Positions 2,924 to 25,707 of a stretch of DNA of 32,504 nucleotides are shown here, in pieces. Source of the stretch: a virus. Position 1 is the first letter of the stretch. The number at the start of each line of letters is the position of its first letter. Location of the stretch: positions 1 to 32,504 of the IMG/VR virus record IMGVR_UViG_3300033148_002105; one strand, 5' to 3'. A model generated the notes under the pieces. It saw only the letters and a list, made by a program, of their open reading frames with translations. It was not told the DNA's origin and did not search any database. Position numbers and translations under genes: made by a program.

Positions 2924-3472
2924 TTAATTTATTTTATTTAGTATAGAGCGTTTCACTTTCATATATTTTAAACGATTGTCAATATTCTTTATTTGGAAGA
3001 TATAATTATTCCTTTTATAATCATCTCCACCTTCTTCATGAGCTAGTTTTCTAAGTTCCATTTTAGACTTATTTAACGTAGCTATTATAAATTTTTCATC
3101 CTCATTAAATTCAACAATGCCTTTTATATAGTGAATAGATTTATTGTAATCAAATGTACGTGAATTATGTGTTTTATAACCTCTTGATTGAGTTAGCATT
3201 ATATAATACCCTTCATAATATTTCATCTCAGCTAAATCATTAGTGACTTTCAATACTTTAAATTCCCATCTATAAGGATTCAATGTAATGCTATCGTCTA
3301 ATGAAAAGTTAGAGTGATGGCTTTGTTCAAACATATTTGATTCTGCATTATAGTTATATCTACTTGACATTGATTTAGATGAGCCTATGTAAGCCTCTTT
3401 TAAAGTCTTGTTGTATATTATATAGACACTTGGCTTATCTGTTAATTCCGATTTGATTTTAATATTCTTCAT
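2924..3472 (-). CDS. GIY-YIG-fold protein (putative homing-type endonuclease)
   Basis: 182 aa. VYIIY at residues 16-20 and YIG at 28-30 match the two halves of the GIY-YIG signature. R38, E87 (in YYEGYYI) and N103 (GYKTHN) fall where the family's catalytic Arg, Glu and Asn lie. The C-terminal 75 residues are helical and Lys-rich, likely DNA-binding. It is only distantly similar to the two GIY-YIG proteins at 7426 and 12056 and lacks their NUMOD-like repeats. An early-type element (3482-3502) lies 9 bp upstream of the ATG. The last codons KIN and the TGA stop are followed directly by the next early-type element. Confidence 0.7.
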   Translation of the reverse strand: MKNIKIKSELTDKPSVYIIYNKTLKEAYIGSSKSMSSRYNYNAESNMFEQSHHSNFSLDDSITLNPYRWEFKVLKVTNDLAEMKYYEGYYIMLTQSRGYKTHNSRTFDYNKSIHYIKGIVEFNEDEKFIIATLNKSKMELRKLAHEEGGDDYKRNNYIFQIKNIDNRLKYMKVKRSILNKIN

Positions 3473-3874: not shown

Positions 3875-3894
3875 CTTTATATTATATATTCAAT
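3875..3894 (-). promoter_or_regulatory. Early-type element inside the endolysin 3' end
   Basis: Minus-strand ATTGAATATATAATATAAAG. Its core encodes the last endolysin codons E-Y-I-I-stop, so the control signal for the 49-aa gene is embedded in coding sequence. Confidence 0.55.
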
Positions 3895-4404
3895 CTTTTT
3901 TATTTTTTTACAAATGCTCAATCTTTTTTTATAATAACTTTTCCAAATAACGCCTCCTATGCTATCTACTACTACCCCTCTTGATGTAGAATGCATTATT
4001 TTATTATCGCCAATGTAGATAGCCACATGGCTTATATAGGATGTATTTCTTCCACTCGAAGATCTTTTAAAAAACAATAAATCCCCTTTGACAATGCTAT
4101 CAAAGGGGACTGACTCGCCAATCTTAGACTGGCTTCTCGAATTTCTCGGTATGGATATTCCATTATCCTTATATATATGTTGTGTCAAAGAAGAACAATC
4201 TATACCATTAGATGTAGTACCTCCATATTCATATTTGGTGCCAATGTATTTAGAATTGATTTTAAAGTGCATTTCGTTTGATTTAAGAGCCTTTAAGGAA
4301 CGTTTAGCATAATGTGCTGGAAATAATAAAGGTTGCTTAAACGGCGTTAAATAGCTAGAATTAAATGTGAGGAAACTTAAAAGGATTAATAATTTAGTTT
4401 TCAT
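3877..4404 (-). CDS. NlpC/P60 cell-wall hydrolase (endolysin)
   Basis: 175 aa. The N-terminus (MKTKLLILLSFLTFNSS) looks like a signal peptide or signal anchor, so export by the host pathway is possible. The NlpC/P60 domain spans about residues 52-160: YIGTKYEYGG, then C70 in GIDCSS (nucleophile), H126 in ISHVAIYIG and H138 in MHSTS complete the papain-like triad. The family cleaves peptide bonds in the peptidoglycan stem. It heads the minus-strand block with membrane proteins further downstream, as expected of a lysis module. Upstream it carries a late-type CGTATTA (4411-4417) and box c of the inverted-repeat module, consistent with late expression. Confidence 0.85.
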   Translation of the reverse strand: MKTKLLILLSFLTFNSSYLTPFKQPLLFPAHYAKRSLKALKSNEMHFKINSKYIGTKYEYGGTTSNGIDCSSLTQHIYKDNGISIPRNSRSQSKIGESVPFDSIVKGDLLFFKRSSSGRNTSYISHVAIYIGDNKIMHSTSRGVVVDSIGGVIWKSYYKKRLSICKKIKKIEYII

Positions 4405-4410
4405 AGTTAA

Positions 4411-4448
4411 TAATACGAAGTGATAGAATGGTACAGGGATAATGTGTT
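4411..4448 (-). promoter_or_regulatory. Late-type control region of the endolysin (CGTATTA plus box c)
   Basis: On the minus strand the 22-bp box (4448-4427, AACACATT-ATCCCT-GTACCATT) is followed after 9 bp by CGTATTA (4417-4411), just before the ATG at 4404. Confidence 0.5.
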
Positions 4449-4644
4449 TGTAGATATTAATAAAGTTTAACTATGTATAAGTATAACTATATATAAGTAT
4501 AAAGTAACATTATCTTCTTATGTATCACCCACTTTTAAAATAAAAACAGCTGTGGCTCAATGATACCGTGCGTTACAGCGTATTTTAGAGGGTGCAGTAT
4601 ATGGACAAAACAACGTGAAAAATAAATTAATAAACTTTGCTAAA
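4428..4644 (-). repeat. Long inverted repeat, copy 1 (bidirectional control region)
   Basis: The reverse complement matches 19099-19310 with about ten substitutions, one single-base indel and one 6-bp indel (about 95% identical by eye). It fills the divergent gap between the endolysin (leftward) and the 4691 gene (rightward). Inside are an imperfect hairpin with a GCTGT/ACAGC stem and two imperfect ~16-bp direct repeats (TATACTTATATATAGT / TATACTTATACATAGT, read on the minus strand). No ORF is present. See the finding for the interpretation. Confidence 0.85.
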
Positions 4645-4663
4645 ATAGAAAAAATAAACAAAC

Positions 4664-4683
4664 TAAATATATAATATAAAAAG
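4664..4683 (+). promoter_or_regulatory. Early-type element
   Basis: TAAATATATAATATAAAAAG on the plus strand, 7 bp before the ATG at 4691. It has TAAATATATAAT in place of TGAATATATAAT. Confidence 0.55.
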
Positions 4684-4690
4684 AAACATT

Positions 4691-4996
4691 ATGACAAGAG
4701 AAGAATTTGACGAAAAGTTATTAGACACATTTAGTGTAAGTGAGATTGCCATTATTAACACTAACATATTTTATAATGAGGATCACAAGGAATATTTTAA
4801 TAAGTTCCATTCGAGAGAGTATGAATGGTGTTATGATTATTTAGTAGAACATAGAAAGTTATTAAGCTTATCTCATACTCCTAGTAAGTATAAAGATTAT
4901 GCGATTAAACTAATTGAAAATGCTAAAGTGTTATATCGTCATGAAGCAAGTATGAAAGAGGACAATAAACAAAAACTATCTACAATATCAAAGTAA
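4691..4996 (+). CDS. 101-aa protein of unknown function
   Basis: A soluble, helical and charged protein (MTREEFDEKLLDTFS...; WCYDYLVEHRKLLSL in the middle; a hydrophilic tail). No domain is recognised. It forms a transcription unit of its own: an early-type element 7 bp upstream and a strong terminator directly after the stop. It faces away from the endolysin across inverted-repeat copy 1, in the position the polymerase gene has at copy 2. That arrangement suggests an early, possibly regulatory or host-takeover role, which is inference only. Confidence 0.7.
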   Translation: MTREEFDEKLLDTFSVSEIAIINTNIFYNEDHKEYFNKFHSREYEWCYDYLVEHRKLLSLSHTPSKYKDYAIKLIENAKVLYRHEASMKEDNKQKLSTISK

Positions 4997-5040
4997 AATT
5001 AAAACGCTGTTAAAATATCAATTCTAACAGCGTTTTAATT
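4997..5040. terminator. Strong bidirectional terminator
   Basis: A 16-bp perfect inverted repeat (4997-5012 with 5025-5040; core AAAACGCTGTTA/TAACAGCGTTTT) around a 12-nt loop, with A-tract on one side and T-tract on the other. It serves the 4691 gene and, on the other strand, the sigma-like gene's 3' side. Confidence 0.85.
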
Positions 5041-5087: not shown

Positions 5088-5666
5088 CTAAAACAGTGCA
5101 TTTGGAATGTTTGAAAGCGTTTTATGCTCTATGTTACTATCTTTTAAGAACTCTAACAGTATTTCATTGCCATCTATCTTATCTGCTATTTTCATATTTA
5201 TTTTAATTAAGTATCTGTTTAATGTTTGTCTACTTATTTTCAAGTACGTTTGCATTTCCATTTTAGATTTCTTTTCAACATATATCTTTTGAATTAAGAA
5301 TTGTTCCACTCTGGTCAATTCAGTTATTATATTTTTCAATTGGTATTTATAGTCTGTTTCTATTTCGTAATCCGTATCGAAGTGAGCATCATGTATATAG
5401 CCATTCTTACGTGAATAATCAGTATTTCTTTTCTTACGAGATTTCTCCCGTCTCATGTAATCTATTATATAATTCTTGCATATAGTTGTAAAGTAAGAAT
5501 GCCTTTTAGATAAATCTTTACTAGAATCGTAATTTCCTTTTGTCACTATTTTAATATACACTTCATTTATAATATCATCTGTCATGTTTACAAAGTGTGC
5601 GAATTTAGATTTTATAAATGGCGGCAGTATCGCTTGTAGTTTGTCATATATTTCAATTTCAGTCAT
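5088..5666 (-). CDS. Phage sigma-70-family (ECF-like) factor
   Basis: 192 aa from ATG at 5666; an in-frame TTG lies 6 bp further up. Numbering counts that TTG as 1. Residues about 31-83 fit region 2 (DDIINEVYIKIV ... SYFTTICKNYIIDYMRREKSRKK, the core-binding and -10 contact helices). Residues about 115-165 fit region 4 (LTRVEQFLIQKIYVEKKS then SRQTLNRYLIKINMKI, a helix-turn-helix). A short acidic linker joins them and no region 3 is visible. It should bind host RNA polymerase core and redirect it. Its own upstream region has an early-type element. Divergent from it, the terminase operon has a late-type element, so it is a good candidate activator of the late genes. Confidence 0.75.
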   Translation of the reverse strand: MTEIEIYDKLQAILPPFIKSKFAHFVNMTDDIINEVYIKIVTKGNYDSSKDLSKRHSYFTTICKNYIIDYMRREKSRKKRNTDYSRKNGYIHDAHFDTDYEIETDYKYQLKNIITELTRVEQFLIQKIYVEKKSKMEMQTYLKISRQTLNRYLIKINMKIADKIDGNEILLEFLKDSNIEHKTLSNIPNALF

Positions 5667-5676
5667 AATCAATCCT

Positions 5677-7425: not shown

Positions 7426-8088
7426 ATGCGAACAGGTATAATATATATAGCAACTAATACCATTAATAATAAGGTTTATATAGGTCAAACTATTCAAGGA
7501 TTACAAAAAAGGAAGTCGCAGCATATTAAAAATGCAGTATCTAAATGTGACAATATGTATTTCCATAAAGCAATACGTAAATATGGTAAGGATAATTTTA
7601 AATGGGAAGTATTAGTAGACTGTCCTATTAGTGATTTAAATGATCAAGAAATATATTGGATTAAATACTGGGATAGTTTTGGCAAAAGGGGTTATAACTC
7701 AACTATTGGCGGAAGTTTAGGAGCGAATGGTTTCAAAGGTAGAAAGCATAGTATTGAAACAAAGCTATTGCTAAGCATTCGATCAAAAGAAGACGGTTAT
7801 GGTATGAGAGGAAAAAAACACTCTGCGCATTCAAGAAAAAAAATGTCAATACAGAAAAAAGGGAAGTTGCTATATAATGCTCATAAACAAAAGTTATCTA
7901 AGATTCGCCAAGGTATTAATAATCCTAATGCAGATAGCACTATTTATACATTTTATAACAAAGAATTAGATATTATAGAAAAATGCACTAGACTGGAATT
8001 GCAAGACAAATACGGGGTAAAATCACTAGGAGGATTATTTGCGACAAGAGTTCAAAAAACAGCTTATGGATGGAGTTTGCTTTATTAA
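7426..8088 (+). CDS. GIY-YIG homing endonuclease
   Basis: 220 aa. The GIY-YIG nuclease domain covers residues 4-95: GIIYIATN, VYIG (17-20), R29/H33, E75 in DQEIYWIKYW and N91 in GYNST. Two NUMOD3-like DNA-binding repeats follow (GFKGRKHSIETK at about 102-113, GMRGKKHSAHSRKKMS at 126-141). A C-terminal segment (about 172-220, TIYTFYNKE ... GLFATRVQKTAYGWSL) probably also contacts DNA. Such proteins cut intron- or gene-less alleles and spread themselves; this one is free-standing between terL and the connector gene. It has its own early-type element. Its last codons merge with the late control region at 8079. Confidence 0.9.
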   Translation: MRTGIIYIATNTINNKVYIGQTIQGLQKRKSQHIKNAVSKCDNMYFHKAIRKYGKDNFKWEVLVDCPISDLNDQEIYWIKYWDSFGKRGYNSTIGGSLGANGFKGRKHSIETKLLLSIRSKEDGYGMRGKKHSAHSRKKMSIQKKGKLLYNAHKQKLSKIRQGINNPNADSTIYTFYNKELDIIEKCTRLELQDKYGVKSLGGLFATRVQKTAYGWSLLY

Positions 8089-8140
8089 TATCTACAAACA
8101 CATAATCCCTGTACCATTATCAATACGTATTACTATAAAC
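8079..8140 (+). promoter_or_regulatory. Late control region, half-copy of the inverted-repeat module (box a plus ACGTATTA)
   Basis: From CTTTATTAATATCTACAAAC (8079) onward the sequence matches the right half of the inverted-repeat module at 19271-19325 almost base for base. It includes the 22-bp box (8097-8118, AACACATA-ATCCCT-GTACCATT) and ACGTATTA (8125-8132). It precedes the connector gene at 8154. The left half of the module is absent, replaced by the end of the GIY-YIG gene. Confidence 0.65.
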
Positions 8141-10287: not shown

Positions 10288-10863
10288 ATGATAGCCAGCA
10301 TATATACGACTCTCCAGTATTTCATTACTGAGAGAATACCAGAAATAGCTTACATATCGCTATACAATGATCAATTTAATAACCATGACAGTAATAGAGC
10401 ACTACCAATGCCAGCTGTTTTGATAGAGATATTGCCTATAAACTTTGAAAACATGTTGCAACAGGTTCAATATGCAAAAGTGGATGTCAATATTCATTTC
10501 GGTACGGAGATTTATAATGGTTTCGATAGAGACGATGCTATGCAAGATTCAAGTTTAGAACATTTGGCACTATTAGATAAGCTTTATATAGGTTTAAATC
10601 GTGTCAATTCTGAAATGCTGCCCGATGAAATGAAGAACGAGTTATATATGCAAGGAGGATTTAGACGTAATAGTTTAAGTTTGAATAGATATAACTCTGT
10701 AATACATCATTCTGTTATTAACGGTAGCTTTATGATTTATGATCTCTCGGCAATTAAAACATATAACGAAATCGAGCTTAGTGATATTAAACTCAAAACA
10801 TGGTACGAACCGAATCCGCCATTTGAAGGAGAGCCACAAGCAAAAGAAATAGATATAAAATAG
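10288..10863 (+). CDS. Probable tail terminator/neck protein
   Basis: 191 aa, alpha/beta. The layout fits tail terminator (gp37/DUF3168-like) proteins: an N-terminal helix (MIASIYTTLQYFITERI), PMPAVLIEILPINFENM, then VDVNIHFGTEIYNG, LALLDKLYIGLN and a C-terminal beta strand pair (HHSVINGSFMIYDL). The gene follows the gpG-like gene by 3 bp. The acidic, Pro-rich tail is of unknown use. The TAG stop overlaps the first bases of the tRNA-Met gene. Function is inferred from position and pattern. Confidence 0.65.
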   Translation: MIASIYTTLQYFITERIPEIAYISLYNDQFNNHDSNRALPMPAVLIEILPINFENMLQQVQYAKVDVNIHFGTEIYNGFDRDDAMQDSSLEHLALLDKLYIGLNRVNSEMLPDEMKNELYMQGGFRRNSLSLNRYNSVIHHSVINGSFMIYDLSAIKTYNEIELSDIKLKTWYEPNPPFEGEPQAKEIDIK

Positions 10864-10935
10864 CGGGATAGTAGCAGTTGGTAGCTCGCGAGCCTCATAA
10901 GCTCGAGGTCGGCGGTTCGAGTCCGCCTCCCGCTA
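10862..10935 (+). tRNA. tRNA-Met (CAT anticodon)
   Basis: Acceptor AGCGGGA (10862-10868) pairs with TCCCGCT (10928-10934), discriminator A. The anticodon arm is CGAGC-CTCATAA-GCTCG with anticodon CAT. The T arm is GGCGG-TTCGAGT-CCGCC. The D arm AGTTGGTA is present but its stem is short with one mismatch. CCA is not encoded. The gene shares its first two bases with the stop codon of the preceding CDS. Confidence 0.9.
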
Positions 10936-10941
10936 CAATAT

Positions 10942-11013
10942 GCTAATATAGTTTAATTGGTAAAACCACAGATTTGTAACCTGTAGTCACTGGTTCGATC
11001 CCAGTTATTAGCT
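10942..11013 (+). tRNA. tRNA-Thr (TGT anticodon)
   Basis: Acceptor GCTAATA (10942-10948) pairs with TATTAGC (11006-11012). The anticodon loop TTTGTAA gives anticodon TGT (codon ACA). The T arm is ACTGG-TTCGATC-CCAGT. The anticodon stem has one mismatch at the loop end. It lies 6 bp after tRNA-Met, probably in one transcript with it. Confidence 0.85.
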
Positions 11014-11040
11014 CAATTTTGGACACTTTTTTGTGTCGTA

Positions 11041-12049: not shown

Positions 12050-12055
12050 GAAGTG

Positions 12056-12721
12056 ATGAAAAGCGGTGTTATATATAAAGTTACTAATATTATCAATGGC
12101 AAAGTGTATGTTGGTCAGACTAGGAACTCAATGGAATACCGCATGAAACAACACTTGCGATCTAAAGACAATGTATATTTTCACAGAGCCATCCGTAAAT
12201 ACGGAGAAGATAGTTTTAAATGGGAAGTTCTAGTAGAATGCCCTATTAAAGACTTAAATGCTCAAGAAAGTTATTGGATTAAACATTGGAATAGTTTTAG
12301 TGCAGAAGGATATAACTTGACTAATGGAGGCGATGTTACAGAAATAAGCTATGCTACAAAAATTAAAATAAGCAACTCTTTGAAAAACCATAAAGTAACT
12401 GACATCACAAGAAATAAAATAAGTATAGCTAAGACATGCACAAAGGCGTCCGATGCCACTAAAGTGAAACTATCGAAATGTAACTTAGGAGATAAAAATC
12501 CAATGTATGGCAAAACGTTTTCAACTGAACACAGACGAAAAATGTCAAACATGCAATGGAAAAAGGACTATACTATATACACGTTCTATAATAAAAAATT
12601 AAATATCACAGAAAATTGTGATAGGTACGAATTACAAACAAAATACAAAATAAATATAAACAATCTATTCAGAACAATAAAGCCTAGAAAAACTTGTAAT
12701 GGATGGGAGTTAATAAATTAA
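12056..12721 (+). CDS. GIY-YIG homing endonuclease
   Basis: 221 aa from ATG 12056; the GTG at 12053 is in frame, but ATG aligns with the starts of the other two copies (MKSGV / MRTGI / MKTGI). GIY-YIG domain in residues 4-92: GVIYKVTN, KVYVGQT, R29/H33, E71 in AQESYWIKHW and N87 in GYNLT. A NUMOD3-like repeat is visible as NPMYGKTFSTEHRRKMS. The C-terminus (TIYTFYNKKLNI ... TCNGWELIN) matches the copy at 7426, so the two are paralogues. It lies between protease-scaffold and major capsid genes. The start is 6 bp after the preceding stop and no early-type element is seen, so it is expressed from the late operon. Confidence 0.9.
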   Translation: MKSGVIYKVTNIINGKVYVGQTRNSMEYRMKQHLRSKDNVYFHRAIRKYGEDSFKWEVLVECPIKDLNAQESYWIKHWNSFSAEGYNLTNGGDVTEISYATKIKISNSLKNHKVTDITRNKISIAKTCTKASDATKVKLSKCNLGDKNPMYGKTFSTEHRRKMSNMQWKKDYTIYTFYNKKLNITENCDRYELQTKYKININNLFRTIKPRKTCNGWELIN

Positions 12722-16955: not shown

Positions 16956-17309
16956 ATGAAACAAGATTTAGAGAGAATCAAACATTTGAAAGAGCTTTTT
17001 GAGCAGTTAAAAACAGAGCATAAAGACGTATTTGAATTGACAGTAGGCGACGAACCAGTTAAAGATGAGAAAGATACGAGATTATATGGGTATTTTCGTA
17101 AACCTACTTTTAACGAGTTCAGAATGATATACCCTTTAATAGTAAAAGGAGACGATCTAAGTGCTGACAAGCGTTTAGTAGAGACATGCTGGTTAGGAGG
17201 AGATCCTGAAATGATAGATATAGATAATAATTTAGATGTATTTCTTTCCATGAAGTCAGAATTATCACAACTTATTGAAATTAAATCTGCTAGCTTAAAA
17301 AAAAAGTAG
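16956..17309 (+). CDS. Tail assembly chaperone, short (G-like) product
   Basis: 117 aa, helical and charged. It contains the pattern typical of such chaperones in this phage group: LTVGDEPVKDEKDTRLYGYF then RKPTFNEFRMIYPLI and ETCWLGGDPEMI. It would bind the tape measure during tail assembly. The gene ends in a run of nine A and a TAG stop. Slippage there yields the longer product (see 17306-17485). The tape measure gene follows, but only after a minus-strand polymerase gene interrupts the operon, which is unusual. Confidence 0.8.
   Translation: MKQDLERIKHLKELFEQLKTEHKDVFELTVGDEPVKDEKDTRLYGYFRKPTFNEFRMIYPLIVKGDDLSADKRLVETCWLGGDPEMIDIDNNLDVFLSMKSELSQLIEIKSASLKKK
17295..17306 (+). other. -1 frameshift slippery site
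   Basis: TTAAAAAAAAAG: nine A between TT and G, directly before the TAG (17307-17309) of the short chaperone frame. A -1 slip places the ribosome in the frame that opens on GTA at 17306 and stays open to 17485. Homopolymer slippage by polymerase or a sequencing error in the run are the alternatives. Confidence 0.7.
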
Positions 17310-17485
17310 ATAAATATTCATTAAGTAAAAAAGAAGGTGAGGACGAGTTCTTAAAACAAGACGGACTTATTGCGTACCATTTCAATATTGACACAAGTGA
17401 AATGAGTGAAGATGAATGGGCAATGAGATGGAATCAACTTTTATGGGTGAAGGCTCAAGAATCCAAAGCATTTGAAAAGAAATAA
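17306..17485 (+). CDS. T-like extension of the tail assembly chaperone (via -1 frameshift)
   Basis: 59 residues before TAA (17483-17485). They begin VDKYSLSKKEGEDEFLKQDG and end with EDEWAMRWNQLLWVKAQESK, a Trp-containing helical segment like the end of GT-type chaperones. No start codon suits independent translation. The fusion product 16956-17485 would be 176 aa. The extension contacts tail subunits in lambda-like systems, and the same two-product scheme is common before the tape measure gene. Confidence 0.75.
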   Translation, partial: VDKYSLSKKEGEDEFLKQDGLIAYHFNIDTSEMSEDEWAMRWNQLLWVKAQESKAFEKK

Positions 17486-17606: not shown

Positions 17607-18890
17607 CTATTTCAATTCATAATCTTTATATCCGTGCTTTTCAAATTCTGCAATAACGGTTTCTAACATGAAGTCTTTGTCACTACTCTTAACATATAAA
17701 CTATCGTGACAGCTTAGACACCATTCAGTAGAAGATACATTTTTATAAGCTTCAATGAATATGGTTGCTTCATCTTTTTGCAACGTTAAAGGAAGATATT
17801 TTTTGTCAGTGCTTTTTATTTTATTAATCTCTTTATATACAGAAGGATATGCTTGCTTAAATACATTCAATAGAGCAGCTCCGCCATTTATACCTTTATA
17901 CATTACTTTTAAGAACTCAGGTTTGATATCATCTCTACTATCGAAGTATTCAATGCTTTTTTCACAAGATACTACTTTGCCGTGTTCTCTTTTCAATTTA
18001 TAACTTTGGAATGCATTATGACCATTCAGCGATACATATTCTTTTAATAATTCTGTATAAATATCTTTCTTAGTAACATCTTCATAGAACGTTTTAATAT
18101 TTTCATCTTCGCCGTTAGTTTTTAATAAGCGAGAAGCTAGGAAATAAGGCTGTGACGACTTTAAATCCGATTGGACTAGTGATTCTCCATTCACATAGCA
18201 AAAGCCTCTTAATTCTCTTTTAATAAGGTTAAACGTATGGAATATTCTGCCAGTTTTATTGTCTTCTACTATCACCCATTTCTTATCGTTCATATCATTT
18301 ATCATTCGTTGATATGTGTTATATTTGTGAGTGGCGAATGTGATGTCTGTATCGAAATAACCTTCTGTTACTAAGTTAGATAGCCATTTTATTGCAGATG
18401 GATAATCGAATTCTATTTGGTTTAACATTTTATATGCGCCCCAATGTTTTCTATCAAACTCGCTTCTATTGTATGAGCTTTTAATTTTCTTATATAAAGT
18501 TGAATTATTAGTCATTATGTATTCTTGGATAGTAAGCTCTTCTATTTCAACATCGTTTGCGAAATTCAATGCTATCCAATAGTCTTTTGATTTTTGCCCA
18601 ACTATATAACTATTATCAGTTTGAATTATACCTTTTTCTATAGATATGTCGATTATAGATTTGTAATGCCTCCAGCCTAATAAATTAGATATATACGATG
18701 CTTTTAATCTGGCTTTAATGTTTCTAAATGTTTTCTCTGGGTGAGACGTTGATTGCCTTTCTATTAGCTCATAGAACATATAGAATTTCTCTCTAGGAAG
18801 TTTCTTTGAATAATCGTTTTGAAGTAATTCATCCACTTTATTAATGAATGCTCTGCTGAATCGTGTTAATTTGTAATTTCTTTTTGACAT
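17607..18890 (-). CDS. Minimal family-A/T7-like single-subunit polymerase
   Basis: 427 aa. Polymerase motifs are visible in order: motif A with D242 in LVQSDLKSSQPYFLASR (242-250 core), preceded by RIFHTFNLIKRELRGF; a motif B-like segment KVMYKGINGG (328-337) followed by LNVFKQAYPSVYKEI; motif C CHDSLYV with H395/D396. The two aspartates D242 and D396 would bind the catalytic metals. The N-terminal 220 residues are helical; no 3'-5' exonuclease motifs are seen. T7 RNA polymerase also has HDS at motif C, so DNA synthesis, priming or RNA synthesis are all possible. It is the only polymerase in the genome. A structured leader and an early-type element lie upstream. Confidence 0.7.
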   Translation of the reverse strand: MSKRNYKLTRFSRAFINKVDELLQNDYSKKLPREKFYMFYELIERQSTSHPEKTFRNIKARLKASYISNLLGWRHYKSIIDISIEKGIIQTDNSYIVGQKSKDYWIALNFANDVEIEELTIQEYIMTNNSTLYKKIKSSYNRSEFDRKHWGAYKMLNQIEFDYPSAIKWLSNLVTEGYFDTDITFATHKYNTYQRMINDMNDKKWVIVEDNKTGRIFHTFNLIKRELRGFCYVNGESLVQSDLKSSQPYFLASRLLKTNGEDENIKTFYEDVTKKDIYTELLKEYVSLNGHNAFQSYKLKREHGKVVSCEKSIEYFDSRDDIKPEFLKVMYKGINGGAALLNVFKQAYPSVYKEINKIKSTDKKYLPLTLQKDEATIFIEAYKNVSSTEWCLSCHDSLYVKSSDKDFMLETVIAEFEKHGYKDYELK

Positions 18891-19034: not shown

Positions 19035-19060
19035 TTTGAAATTAAAAAAGTTTAGTTCCT

Positions 19061-19079
19061 CTACATTATATATTCACTT
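19061..19079 (-). promoter_or_regulatory. Early-type element (variant) for the polymerase
   Basis: Minus-strand AAGTGAATATATAATGTAG, about 170 bp before the polymerase ATG. That is far more than the usual ~10 bp, and the space is filled by the structured leader. Here the element behaves like a promoter, since it is too distant to be a ribosome-binding signal. Confidence 0.5.
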
Positions 19080-19098
19080 AATTTAATTTTTTTACGTT

Positions 19099-19310
19099 TT
19101 TAGCAAAGTTTTTTAATTTATTTTTCATGTTGTTTTGTCCATAAACTGCACCCTCTAAAACACGCTGTAACGCACGGCATCATTGAGCCACAGCGTGTTT
19201 TTATTTTAAAAGCGGGTGATCCATAAGAAGATAATGTTACTTTATACTTATATATAGTTATACTTAGTTAAACTTTATTAATATCTACAAACACATAATC
19301 CCTATACCAT
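19099..19310 (+). repeat. Long inverted repeat, copy 2 (bidirectional control region)
   Basis: Matches the reverse complement of 4428-4644 at about 95%. The early-type side faces the polymerase and the late-type side faces the RusA gene, mirroring copy 1 (4691 gene and endolysin). This copy lacks 6 bp in the second of the two direct repeats (TATACTTA...). Confidence 0.85.
19157..19201 (+). terminator. Hairpin within the inverted repeat, terminator-like
   Basis: AAAACACGCTGT (19157-19168) pairs with ACAGCGTGTTTT (19190-19201), 12 bp. The 21-nt loop contains an inner GGC...GCC pairing, and the tail is T-rich (TATTTT). In copy 1 the inner pairing is kept (GGT...GCC) while the outer stem is partly lost. 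It may block read-through between the divergent halves. Confidence 0.55.
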
Positions 19311-19331
19311 TGCCAATCCGTATTACTGTTA
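19290..19331 (+). promoter_or_regulatory. Late-type control region of RusA (box b plus CGTATTA)
   Basis: Box AACACATA-ATCCCT-ATACCATT (19290-19311), then after 7 bp CGTATTACTGTTATA (19319 on), about 25 bp before the RusA ATG. Confidence 0.5.
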
Positions 19332-19355: not shown

Positions 19356-19730
19356 ATGAAAATATTTATCCCTTTTAACACTCCTTCAAGTAAGAATAGT
19401 AAAGTATGGACTGGTAAATTTCTTGTATGGAGTAAAACAGCTCAGAAATACATCAAGGATTCAAAGCCTTATTTCGCATCTAACAAAAGTATATTTATTG
19501 ATATGGTTAAAGATTTAGAAAAGCCTTATGATATTGAATTTACATTTGTAAGAAAGTCTAAACACAAGTTCGACTATCCTAATCCACTCCAAACTGTTTT
19601 AGATTTAATGGTTAAGTATGAATGGTTGGAAGATGACAACGCTGATGAAATTAGACCCTTTTTCGGCTACTACAGCTACGATAAGGAAAAACCAGGTGTA
19701 TATATTGACATCTACCAAAAAGACTGCTAA
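19356..19730 (+). CDS. RusA-like Holliday junction resolvase
   Basis: 124 aa, the usual size. The N-terminal FIPFNTPSSKNSK matches the RusA IP..P.S.N pattern. The catalytic region holds D73 (HKFDYPNPLQ), D83 (VLDLMVKYEWL) and D93/D94 (EDDNADEI), the set of metal-binding aspartates of the family. RusA cuts four-way junctions, here probably to resolve branched replication or recombination intermediates before packaging. It is transcribed away from the polymerase gene and just ahead of the tape measure, with a late-type control region, so it fits resolution at packaging time. Confidence 0.82.
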   Translation: MKIFIPFNTPSSKNSKVWTGKFLVWSKTAQKYIKDSKPYFASNKSIFIDMVKDLEKPYDIEFTFVRKSKHKFDYPNPLQTVLDLMVKYEWLEDDNADEIRPFFGYYSYDKEKPGVYIDIYQKDC

Positions 19731-19759: not shown

Positions 19760-19802
19760 AACACATATATCAGGTACCATTTTAAAGCGTATTACTATTA
19801 TA
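19760..19802 (+). promoter_or_regulatory. Late-type control region of the tape measure gene (box d plus CGTATTA)
   Basis: Box AACACATA-TATCAG-GTACCATT (19760-19781), then after 6 bp CGTATTACTATTATA (19788-19802). The spacing matches the copies at 8097 and 19290. Confidence 0.55.
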
Positions 19803-19820
19803 CAATTAAAAATATATAAT

Positions 19821-24789: not shown

Positions 24790-25098
24790 ATGAATTACGA
24801 TATAAGAACAGACATAGATAACCAAGAAGATCCTTTTGAACTAATGTTTAATGACGGTGATTTTCAGATTTATCAATCAGACGAACAAATAGTTAGATTG
24901 ACATTATTATCTGGAAAAGGAAATTGGAAACAAGAACCGTTGATAGGTGCAGAATTAATAAATCTTTTACATCAGTCGTCAAGAAATGATTATTCTAATA
25001 TAGTTGCGACTGAACTAGAAAAGGTTGGTTATAAGTTGATTAGCTTTAGTCCTGGTGAAACATTGGGCGACTATAATTTGGACGTGGAAGAACTTTAA
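24790..25098 (+). CDS. Baseplate wedge protein (gp25/gp46-like)
   Basis: 102 aa, the usual size. The pattern 'DGDFQIYQSDEQIVRLTLLS' followed by GKGNWKQEPLIGAELINLL is that of gp25/W/gp46-type wedge proteins, which form the core of the baseplate ring and nucleate sheath polymerisation. It directly follows the spike gene, as in Mu (gp45, gp46). Confidence 0.78.
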   Translation: MNYDIRTDIDNQEDPFELMFNDGDFQIYQSDEQIVRLTLLSGKGNWKQEPLIGAELINLLHQSSRNDYSNIVATELEKVGYKLISFSPGETLGDYNLDVEEL

Positions 25099-25113
25099 AA
25101 TAAAAAATATATA

Positions 25114-25380
25114 ATGGCAGTATCAGTAAATATAAATACTAATGACGTAATTTCATCTTATTCAAATGAGATAATAGCTAAACGTTTTGAAAATCAAACA
25201 CCTTTTGACTTTGCATTGACATATTTAGAGTATATTGAAGACATGTTTGAATTTTATAAGCAATTTAACATGGGAGATTACAACGATTTTTATAATGCTC
25301 AAGAATATAGAATAGTTAAATATATAAACCCTTTAGTATTAAATGGTTATATTGCTGCTACTAAAACAGAAAATATATAA
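25114..25380 (+). CDS. Duplicated small baseplate-region protein, copy 1
   Basis: 88 aa. About 65% identical by eye to the next gene: both start MA(V/I)S(V/I)NIN and share SSYSNEIIA(K/R)RFE(N/S)QTP, DFALTYLE and a QEYRI...YINPL block. A helical middle (YLEYIEDMFEFYKQFNMGDY) suggests a small alpha-helical protein. No family is recognised. It sits between wedge and fibre genes and could be part of the baseplate rim. Confidence 0.75.
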   Translation: MAVSVNINTNDVISSYSNEIIAKRFENQTPFDFALTYLEYIEDMFEFYKQFNMGDYNDFYNAQEYRIVKYINPLVLNGYIAATKTENI

Positions 25381-25392
25381 AAACAAATAGAA

Positions 25393-25707
25393 ATGGCAAT
25401 ATCAATAAATATCAATAGCAATAATAGCGTAAGTTCTTATTCAAATGAGATAATAGCTAGACGTTTTGAAAGTCAAACACCACTTGATTTTGCATTGACG
25501 TATTTAGAAAGAATTGAAGATATGTTTAAGTTTTATAGGCAATTTAAAATAGAGCAATACAATGACTTTTATGACGTTCAAGAATATAGAATAACTAATT
25601 ATATAAACCCATTGAGTAAAGAAGGATATATAGCTGCTACTAAAACAGATTATCTTGAATTATTTCCAAGTGATTTCAATTCGGATTGGAGTGATGACTT
25701 CTTTTAA
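25393..25707 (+). CDS. Duplicated small baseplate-region protein, copy 2
   Basis: 104 aa, a tandem paralogue of 25114-25380 starting 12 bp after its stop. It has a 15-residue acidic/aromatic extension at the C-terminus (LFPSDFNSDWSDDFF) absent from copy 1. The two would suit a hetero-oligomer or a stepwise replaced subunit. Confidence 0.75.
   Translation: MAISININSNNSVSSYSNEIIARRFESQTPLDFALTYLERIEDMFKFYRQFKIEQYNDFYDVQEYRITNYINPLSKEGYIAATKTDYLELFPSDFNSDWSDDFF

Follow-up and report, generated by a model that had tools for sequence, protein, structure and literature searches.

Two stretches of non-coding DNA, each about 215 bp long and nearly identical to the other, lie in inverted orientation between divergent genes of a single viral genome. 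What might such a duplicated module do, and how did it come to occupy two places? The window, by which we mean the whole stretch of DNA analysed, is a virus record of 32,504 bp with 114-bp identical ends and about 30% GC. It codes for terminase, portal, prohead protease, capsid, tail sheath, tape measure and baseplate proteins, its portal relatives are Flavobacterium and Bacteroides phages (25-30% identity), and it is a Bacteroidota-type contractile-tailed phage (myophage). Other features of the record include a pair of tRNA genes at 10862-11014, Met(cat) and Thr(tgt), flanked by late genes, and a tandem duplication of a baseplate-region gene (25096-25370 and 25376-25649, ORFs 25114 and 25393; 81% identical). 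On balance, we favour the reading that each copy of the module is probably a bidirectional early/late promoter cassette, duplicated as genes were reshuffled.

Two inverted copies and a fragment

The module pair is the strongest repeat in the window's self-comparison. Aligned over 218 columns, 4428-4644 and 19099-19310 have 202 identical positions, 9 substitutions and 7 gap columns, which amounts to 95.7% identity ungapped (202/211) and 92.7% including gaps; BLAST extends the homology to 4427-4678 and 19311-19062 (89.8% over 256 columns, E about 1e-96). Stops number 2 to 9 per frame in all frames on both strands of both copies, and the longest open stretches are unequal, at 31 and 35 codons in copy A and 50 and 41 codons in copy B. 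Coordinates, inverted orientation and the non-coding nature of the module were therefore correctly described in the original prediction, as was its placement, each copy spanning a divergent gap with an early-type element on one side and the late box plus CGTATTA on the other (Table 1). The further statement that such high identity implies function or gene conversion was too strong, since there are only two copies, of unknown age, and a fairly recent duplication would suffice to explain it.

A partial third copy of 55 bp (8080-8134) repeats the late-box end only and is 92.7% identical to copy B. Of the positions at which A and B differ, it agrees with copy A at one and with copy B at another, and so gives a clue to which of the two has changed. 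Copy B is also present, in the same place, in another record of this species (L006/L009, a 20,865-bp contig that covers the site of copy B and not that of copy A), which is 99.99% identical in the overlap. As a separate observation, when 4523-4648 is compared with copy B, eight differences in a row (4531, 4548, 4565, 4582, 4599, 4615, 4631 and 4646) are spaced 17, 17, 17, 17, 16, 16 and 15 bp apart. This regularity, noticed post hoc, was equalled by 0 of 5000 random placements, and a Rayleigh test on all ten difference events gave p = 0.007.

Table 1. Features of the module, its copies and the neighbouring genes (positions in the window)
Feature	Position	Strand	Remarks
Module copy A	4427-4678	+	In the endolysin/orf4691 gap
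Module copy B	19062-19311	-	In the RusA/polymerase-like gene gap
Partial third copy	8080-8134	-	Extended late box and CGTATTA only; upstream of gene 8154; overlaps the stop of GIY-YIG gene 7426-8088
CGTATTA box	4411-4417	-	13 bp before endolysin ATG
CGTATTA box	19319-19325	+	37 bp before RusA ATG
Core (22-23 bp) of extended late box, TACAAACACATWATCCCTRTACC	4430-4452; 8093-8115; 19286-19308	-; +; +	
Two tandem 16-bp repeats	4463-4494	+	First partly deleted in copy B
GC-rich hairpin, copy A	4526-4594	+	Stem with bulge and mismatch
GC-rich hairpin, copy B	19149-19218	-	Perfect 12-bp stem (19157-19168 / 19190-19201)
Early-type element TAAATATATAATATAAA	4664-4680	+	Before orf4691
Early-type element TGAATATATAATGTAGA	19060-19076	-	Polymerase side, about 170 bp before ATG
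Endolysin-type gene (NlpC/P60)	3877-4404	-	Late side of copy A; PF00877, 1.7e-27
orf4691, unknown product	4691-4996	+	Early side of copy A
Terminator hairpin, 20-bp stem	4997-5040	.	Stem word ACGCTGT/ACAGCGT in common with module hairpin
Sigma-like protein	5088-5672	-	PF07638, 22.0 bits (cut-off 21.1); own gene preceded by early-type element
Polymerase-like gene, tentative family-A-like	17607-18890	-	Early side of copy B
RusA-like resolvase	19356-19730	+	Late side of copy B; phrog_1682, 4.7e-18

Promoter-like motifs at the two edges

From the late to the early side, the module consists of CGTATTA, a 36-bp extension of this box (TTTATTAATATCTACAAACACATWATCCCTRTACCATT on the late-facing strand), AT-rich DNA (which in copy A includes the two tandem 16-mers), a GC-rich hairpin, a second run of AT-rich DNA and the early element. 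Both copies begin and end at promoter-like motifs adjoining outward-facing genes. Among 7-mers upstream of the window's ORFs, CGTATTA shows the strongest enrichment: of its 15 sites, 11 fall in the 90 bp preceding one of the 39 ORFs tested, where 0.81 would be expected. In a sister species represented by two overlapping contigs, L012 and L017 (99.4% identical over 5766 bp), upstream positions account for 5 of 6 sites (0.31 expected) and 4 of 6 sites (0.37 expected), respectively, with 3 sites common to both. Elsewhere the motif is absent (L013 and L024) or rare, with one site in L020, lying upstream, and two in L027, one of them upstream; outside the window and its sister species it is therefore not a strong motif. 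In L019, CGTATAA (AAACGTATAA) precedes four genes.

Nearly all the column information at the 15 window sites falls within the box, and no -35 is conserved. AACGTATTA has 31 matches with one mismatch allowed, against 18.6 in shuffles. The TACAAACACATWATCCCTRTACC core of the extended box has 3 matches with up to 3 mismatches (0.00 expected). A weaker relative of the extended box (AACACATATATCAGGTACCATT followed by CGTATTA) was also seen before the tape measure gene, at 19786-19816, and a further CGTATTA box lies 143 bp before the ATG of the polymerase-like gene. Late promoters of the T4 type consist of a single box that is read by the phage sigma factor gp55. The module resembles them in that late genes are preceded by one short conserved box, with no recognisable -35 element, and in that the phage has a sigma-like protein of its own; the box here is CGTATTA, however, and we infer its link to the sigma-like protein, which is a candidate reader.

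Allowing up to 3 mismatches, the early element matches the window 11 times, where shuffles average 3.24 and never exceed 8; the matches lie before GIY-YIG genes, small genes of early type, the gene of the sigma-like protein and both modules. It stands before the sigma gene in the window and in L017, where its TGATATATAA form precedes four genes, the sigma homologue included. If the motifs do act as promoters, the pair is in keeping with a cascade from early to late genes that runs through the phage's sigma-like protein. At the early edge, a TGAATATATAATATAAA-like promoter would fire outward into the early gene, presumably read by the host RNA polymerase; at the late edge, the single CGTATTA box with its 36-bp upstream extension would fire outward into the late gene, with RNA polymerase and the sigma-like protein as the presumed readers. 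The 150-bp core would sit upstream of both starts, and so would be transcribed by neither promoter. A literature search returned nothing on the promoters of this phage group.

Thus, the early/late control that was originally predicted stands in its promoter half, with motifs that lie at the edges, are enriched and recur before matching genes in the sister species, but not as a 'switch', as no regulator of the core was identified; the AT-rich repeats of the core may bind one. The 'polymerase' that was placed next to copy B can be kept only as a tentative family-A-like gene. Its predicted structure has a mean pLDDT of 51, which makes the family-A match only a hint. A PDB sequence search gave no match.

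The hairpin core and competing explanations

A hairpin with conserved inner pairing had been predicted inside the module. Both copies do contain a hairpin, but the perfect stem belongs to copy B only, that of copy A being bulged and mismatched. RNA fold z-scores for the two strands are -4.2 and -4.4 in copy B, and -2.7 and -1.7 in copy A. No compensatory change was found between the copies, and two stem differences are uncompensated on the + strand. The word ACAGCGT occurs 7 times in the window (1.46 expected), 5 of them in the module hairpins and the hairpin at 4997-5040, and in the leftward direction, toward the late gene, the module hairpin is followed by TTTTTATTTT. This following sequence, together with the stem word that is common to the 4997-5040 terminator, favours the module hairpin as a candidate terminator or insulator, albeit with low confidence. 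It would block stray transcripts crossing between the two sides. A terminator scan was positive for the 4997-5040 hairpin and did not pick up the module hairpin, whose loop is unusually long, and a terminator between two divergent promoters is needed by neither of them.

Could the core instead encode a small structured RNA, or a leader or attenuator upstream of the early gene? The copy B z-scores would suit such an RNA, as would the GC-rich island at the hairpin, which reaches 53% GC in DNA of roughly 30%. Nevertheless, we regard it as unlikely: the module has no Rfam match at E up to 5, a search whose sole results were tRNA and an artefact antisense to one of the tRNAs, the two stem differences are left uncompensated, and an early transcript would leave out the hairpin, which lies upstream of the early element. 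The notion that the core is a functionless leftover of a recent duplication, too young to have diverged, strikes us as doubtful too, although it would account for there being only two full copies, for the absence of the core from all relatives seen and for edges that are more diverged than the middle (a comparison of small numbers). Such a leftover would hardly be expected to retain, at both edges, motifs that are enriched genome-wide, or to have its late-box part little changed in a third place.

The original prediction had also offered the module as a pair of replication origins. Iteron-type origins of plasmids and phages combine AT-rich DNA, direct repeats and a hairpin near replication genes, and the module has all of these: an AT-rich stretch of about 17% GC that might unwind, the hairpin, tandem 16-bp repeats in copy A (4463-4478 and 4479-4494, 88% alike), and, around copy B, the polymerase-like gene and RusA. 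The repeats, described earlier as a property of both copies, are intact only in copy A, because a 6-bp deletion in copy B takes part of the first one; two repeats at best, not kept in the second copy, make iterons a poor reading. No initiator was recognised in Pfam and PHROGs scans, in which not every ORF was run against both libraries, GC skew tracks gene orientation without an origin signal, and copy A lies between orf4691 and endolysin, a lysis gene. Promoters alone would account for both edges. An origin or origin pair seems to us improbable, and that part of the prediction is not supported.

Pattern scans of IMG/VR found the module in one other record only, of the same species; the scans used exact patterns, so a diverged module could be missed. 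Compared with the corresponding gaps of L014, L020 and L027, the core gave no significant similarity in any orientation (lowest, 51 of 300 shuffles), and recombination through the module is therefore not demonstrated in any relative. The original prediction had looked to conservation in related phages, which was not found for the core sequence in the relatives seen but holds for the early/late layout of the gap. A tail-sheath alignment search of genome contigs gave no relative among host prophages.

Several matches were discarded. The hairpin-loop pattern matched coding DNA of an unrelated phage (L005), which is chance, and the same 29-bp match in L007 and L008 was likewise counted as chance; in a gammaproteobacterial contig (L030), which matches the loop pattern plus two bases, similarity ends at 20-21 bp. 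A supposed pol-leader RNA element in common with L014 looks alike by eye, but 58 of 1000 shuffles score as high, and its best segment is just the CGTATTA region. The nearest phage record by module DNA is a 26-bp chance match in a Klebsiella phage.

Movement of cassettes between two sites

The two copies sit at sites where gene content differs between relatives, as judged from few lineages. Site I runs from the tail-fibre end to terminase, and site II from the tail-chaperone gene to the tape measure gene. In the window both sites are occupied, with one module copy each, endolysin going with copy A and polymerase with copy B. In the sister species (L012/L017), polymerase and endolysin are divergent at site I, next to sigma and TerS, and there is no polymerase at site II. 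L020 has nothing at site I; the leftward cassette at its site II includes polymerase, GIY-YIG genes and an endolysin that looks broken, and it diverges from a further small gene and the tape measure gene. In L027, a cassette of endolysin and polymerase lies toward terminase (the overlapping L028 is identical), and its polymerase block is 99.4% identical to that of L020 over 2535 bp, starting just after endolysin. L013, a contig without site I, has no polymerase at site II. Thus, site II is occupied in two of the four lineages that have it in view (the window, L012, L013 and L020, with the uninformative L011 and L019 left out), and this, together with the L020 and L027 blocks, shows that the cassette has moved recently between phages and between sites.

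Other features were observed as well. The endolysin-type gene of L020 (19600-20100) looks broken by stops. Genes of the GIY-YIG homing-endonuclease type (2924-3472, 7426-8088 and 12053-12721 in the window; 17947-20894 in L020) cluster at variable sites, and some are preceded by an early-type element. A programmed -1 frameshift (17296-17480) is probable in the tail-assembly chaperone gene (16956-17309): the -1 frame that follows an A-run has no stop for about 60 codons, a pattern repeated in L012, L013 and L020.

Relatives also carry repeats of their own in intergenic DNA. In L017, a single gap separates endolysin from polymerase; it has a CGTATTG/CGTATTA box facing each of them and, on the polymerase strand, three tandem 29-bp units that resemble the early element. 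The same contig has an inverted non-coding repeat of 139 bp (92%), of which one copy ends where a late gene starts and the other extends to the start of an early ORF. It also has an early-promoter-like direct repeat of 46 bp, and a hairpin with a T run immediately precedes one of its copies. In L019, a tandem repeat of 133 bp lies upstream of the homologue of gene 8154.

Under the promoter-cassette reading, the module would have been copied, inverted, to a second site when the polymerase, endolysin and resolvase genes were reshuffled between the two sites. A bolder version holds that the module is a two-way early/late junction acting as a portable docking site: recombination through it would exchange replication and lysis cassettes between two fixed genomic sites, and at whichever site a cassette arrived, the hairpin core would shield the lysis and tail genes from early transcription. 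From the sequence comparisons at hand we would put this forward as a tentative possibility, and as an unlikely one.

The closest known parallel is that of the PeSLs (promoter early stem-loops; Arbiol et al., 2010; Comeau et al., 2014), promoter and stem-loop cassettes of T4-like phages that are credited with gene shuffling in the account given by PMC4503421. As described there, a PeSL is a short intergenic cassette in which a promoter is combined with a stem-loop; a genome carries several of them, at places of gene swapping. The module has an early-type element, a predicted promoter that is enriched genome-wide, in both copies, and it is present in two full inverted copies and a partial one. 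It differs in being two-way, with a putative late-type promoter as well, in its length of about 215 bp with an unusually long-looped hairpin, and in its carrier, a 32.5-kb myophage of a different phage group. Comparability to PeSLs in layout and setting is the best reading of this likeness, but a module that is two-way and lies outside the T4-like phages is not filed as a member.

Travelling promoter cassettes explain how genes keep their correct timing under new phage gene orders. If our reading is true, this idea would extend to a small phage group of Bacteroidota-type hosts and to a two-way early/late form, and CGTATTA with the phage sigma-like protein would provide a ready promoter model for phages in which transcription has hardly been studied.
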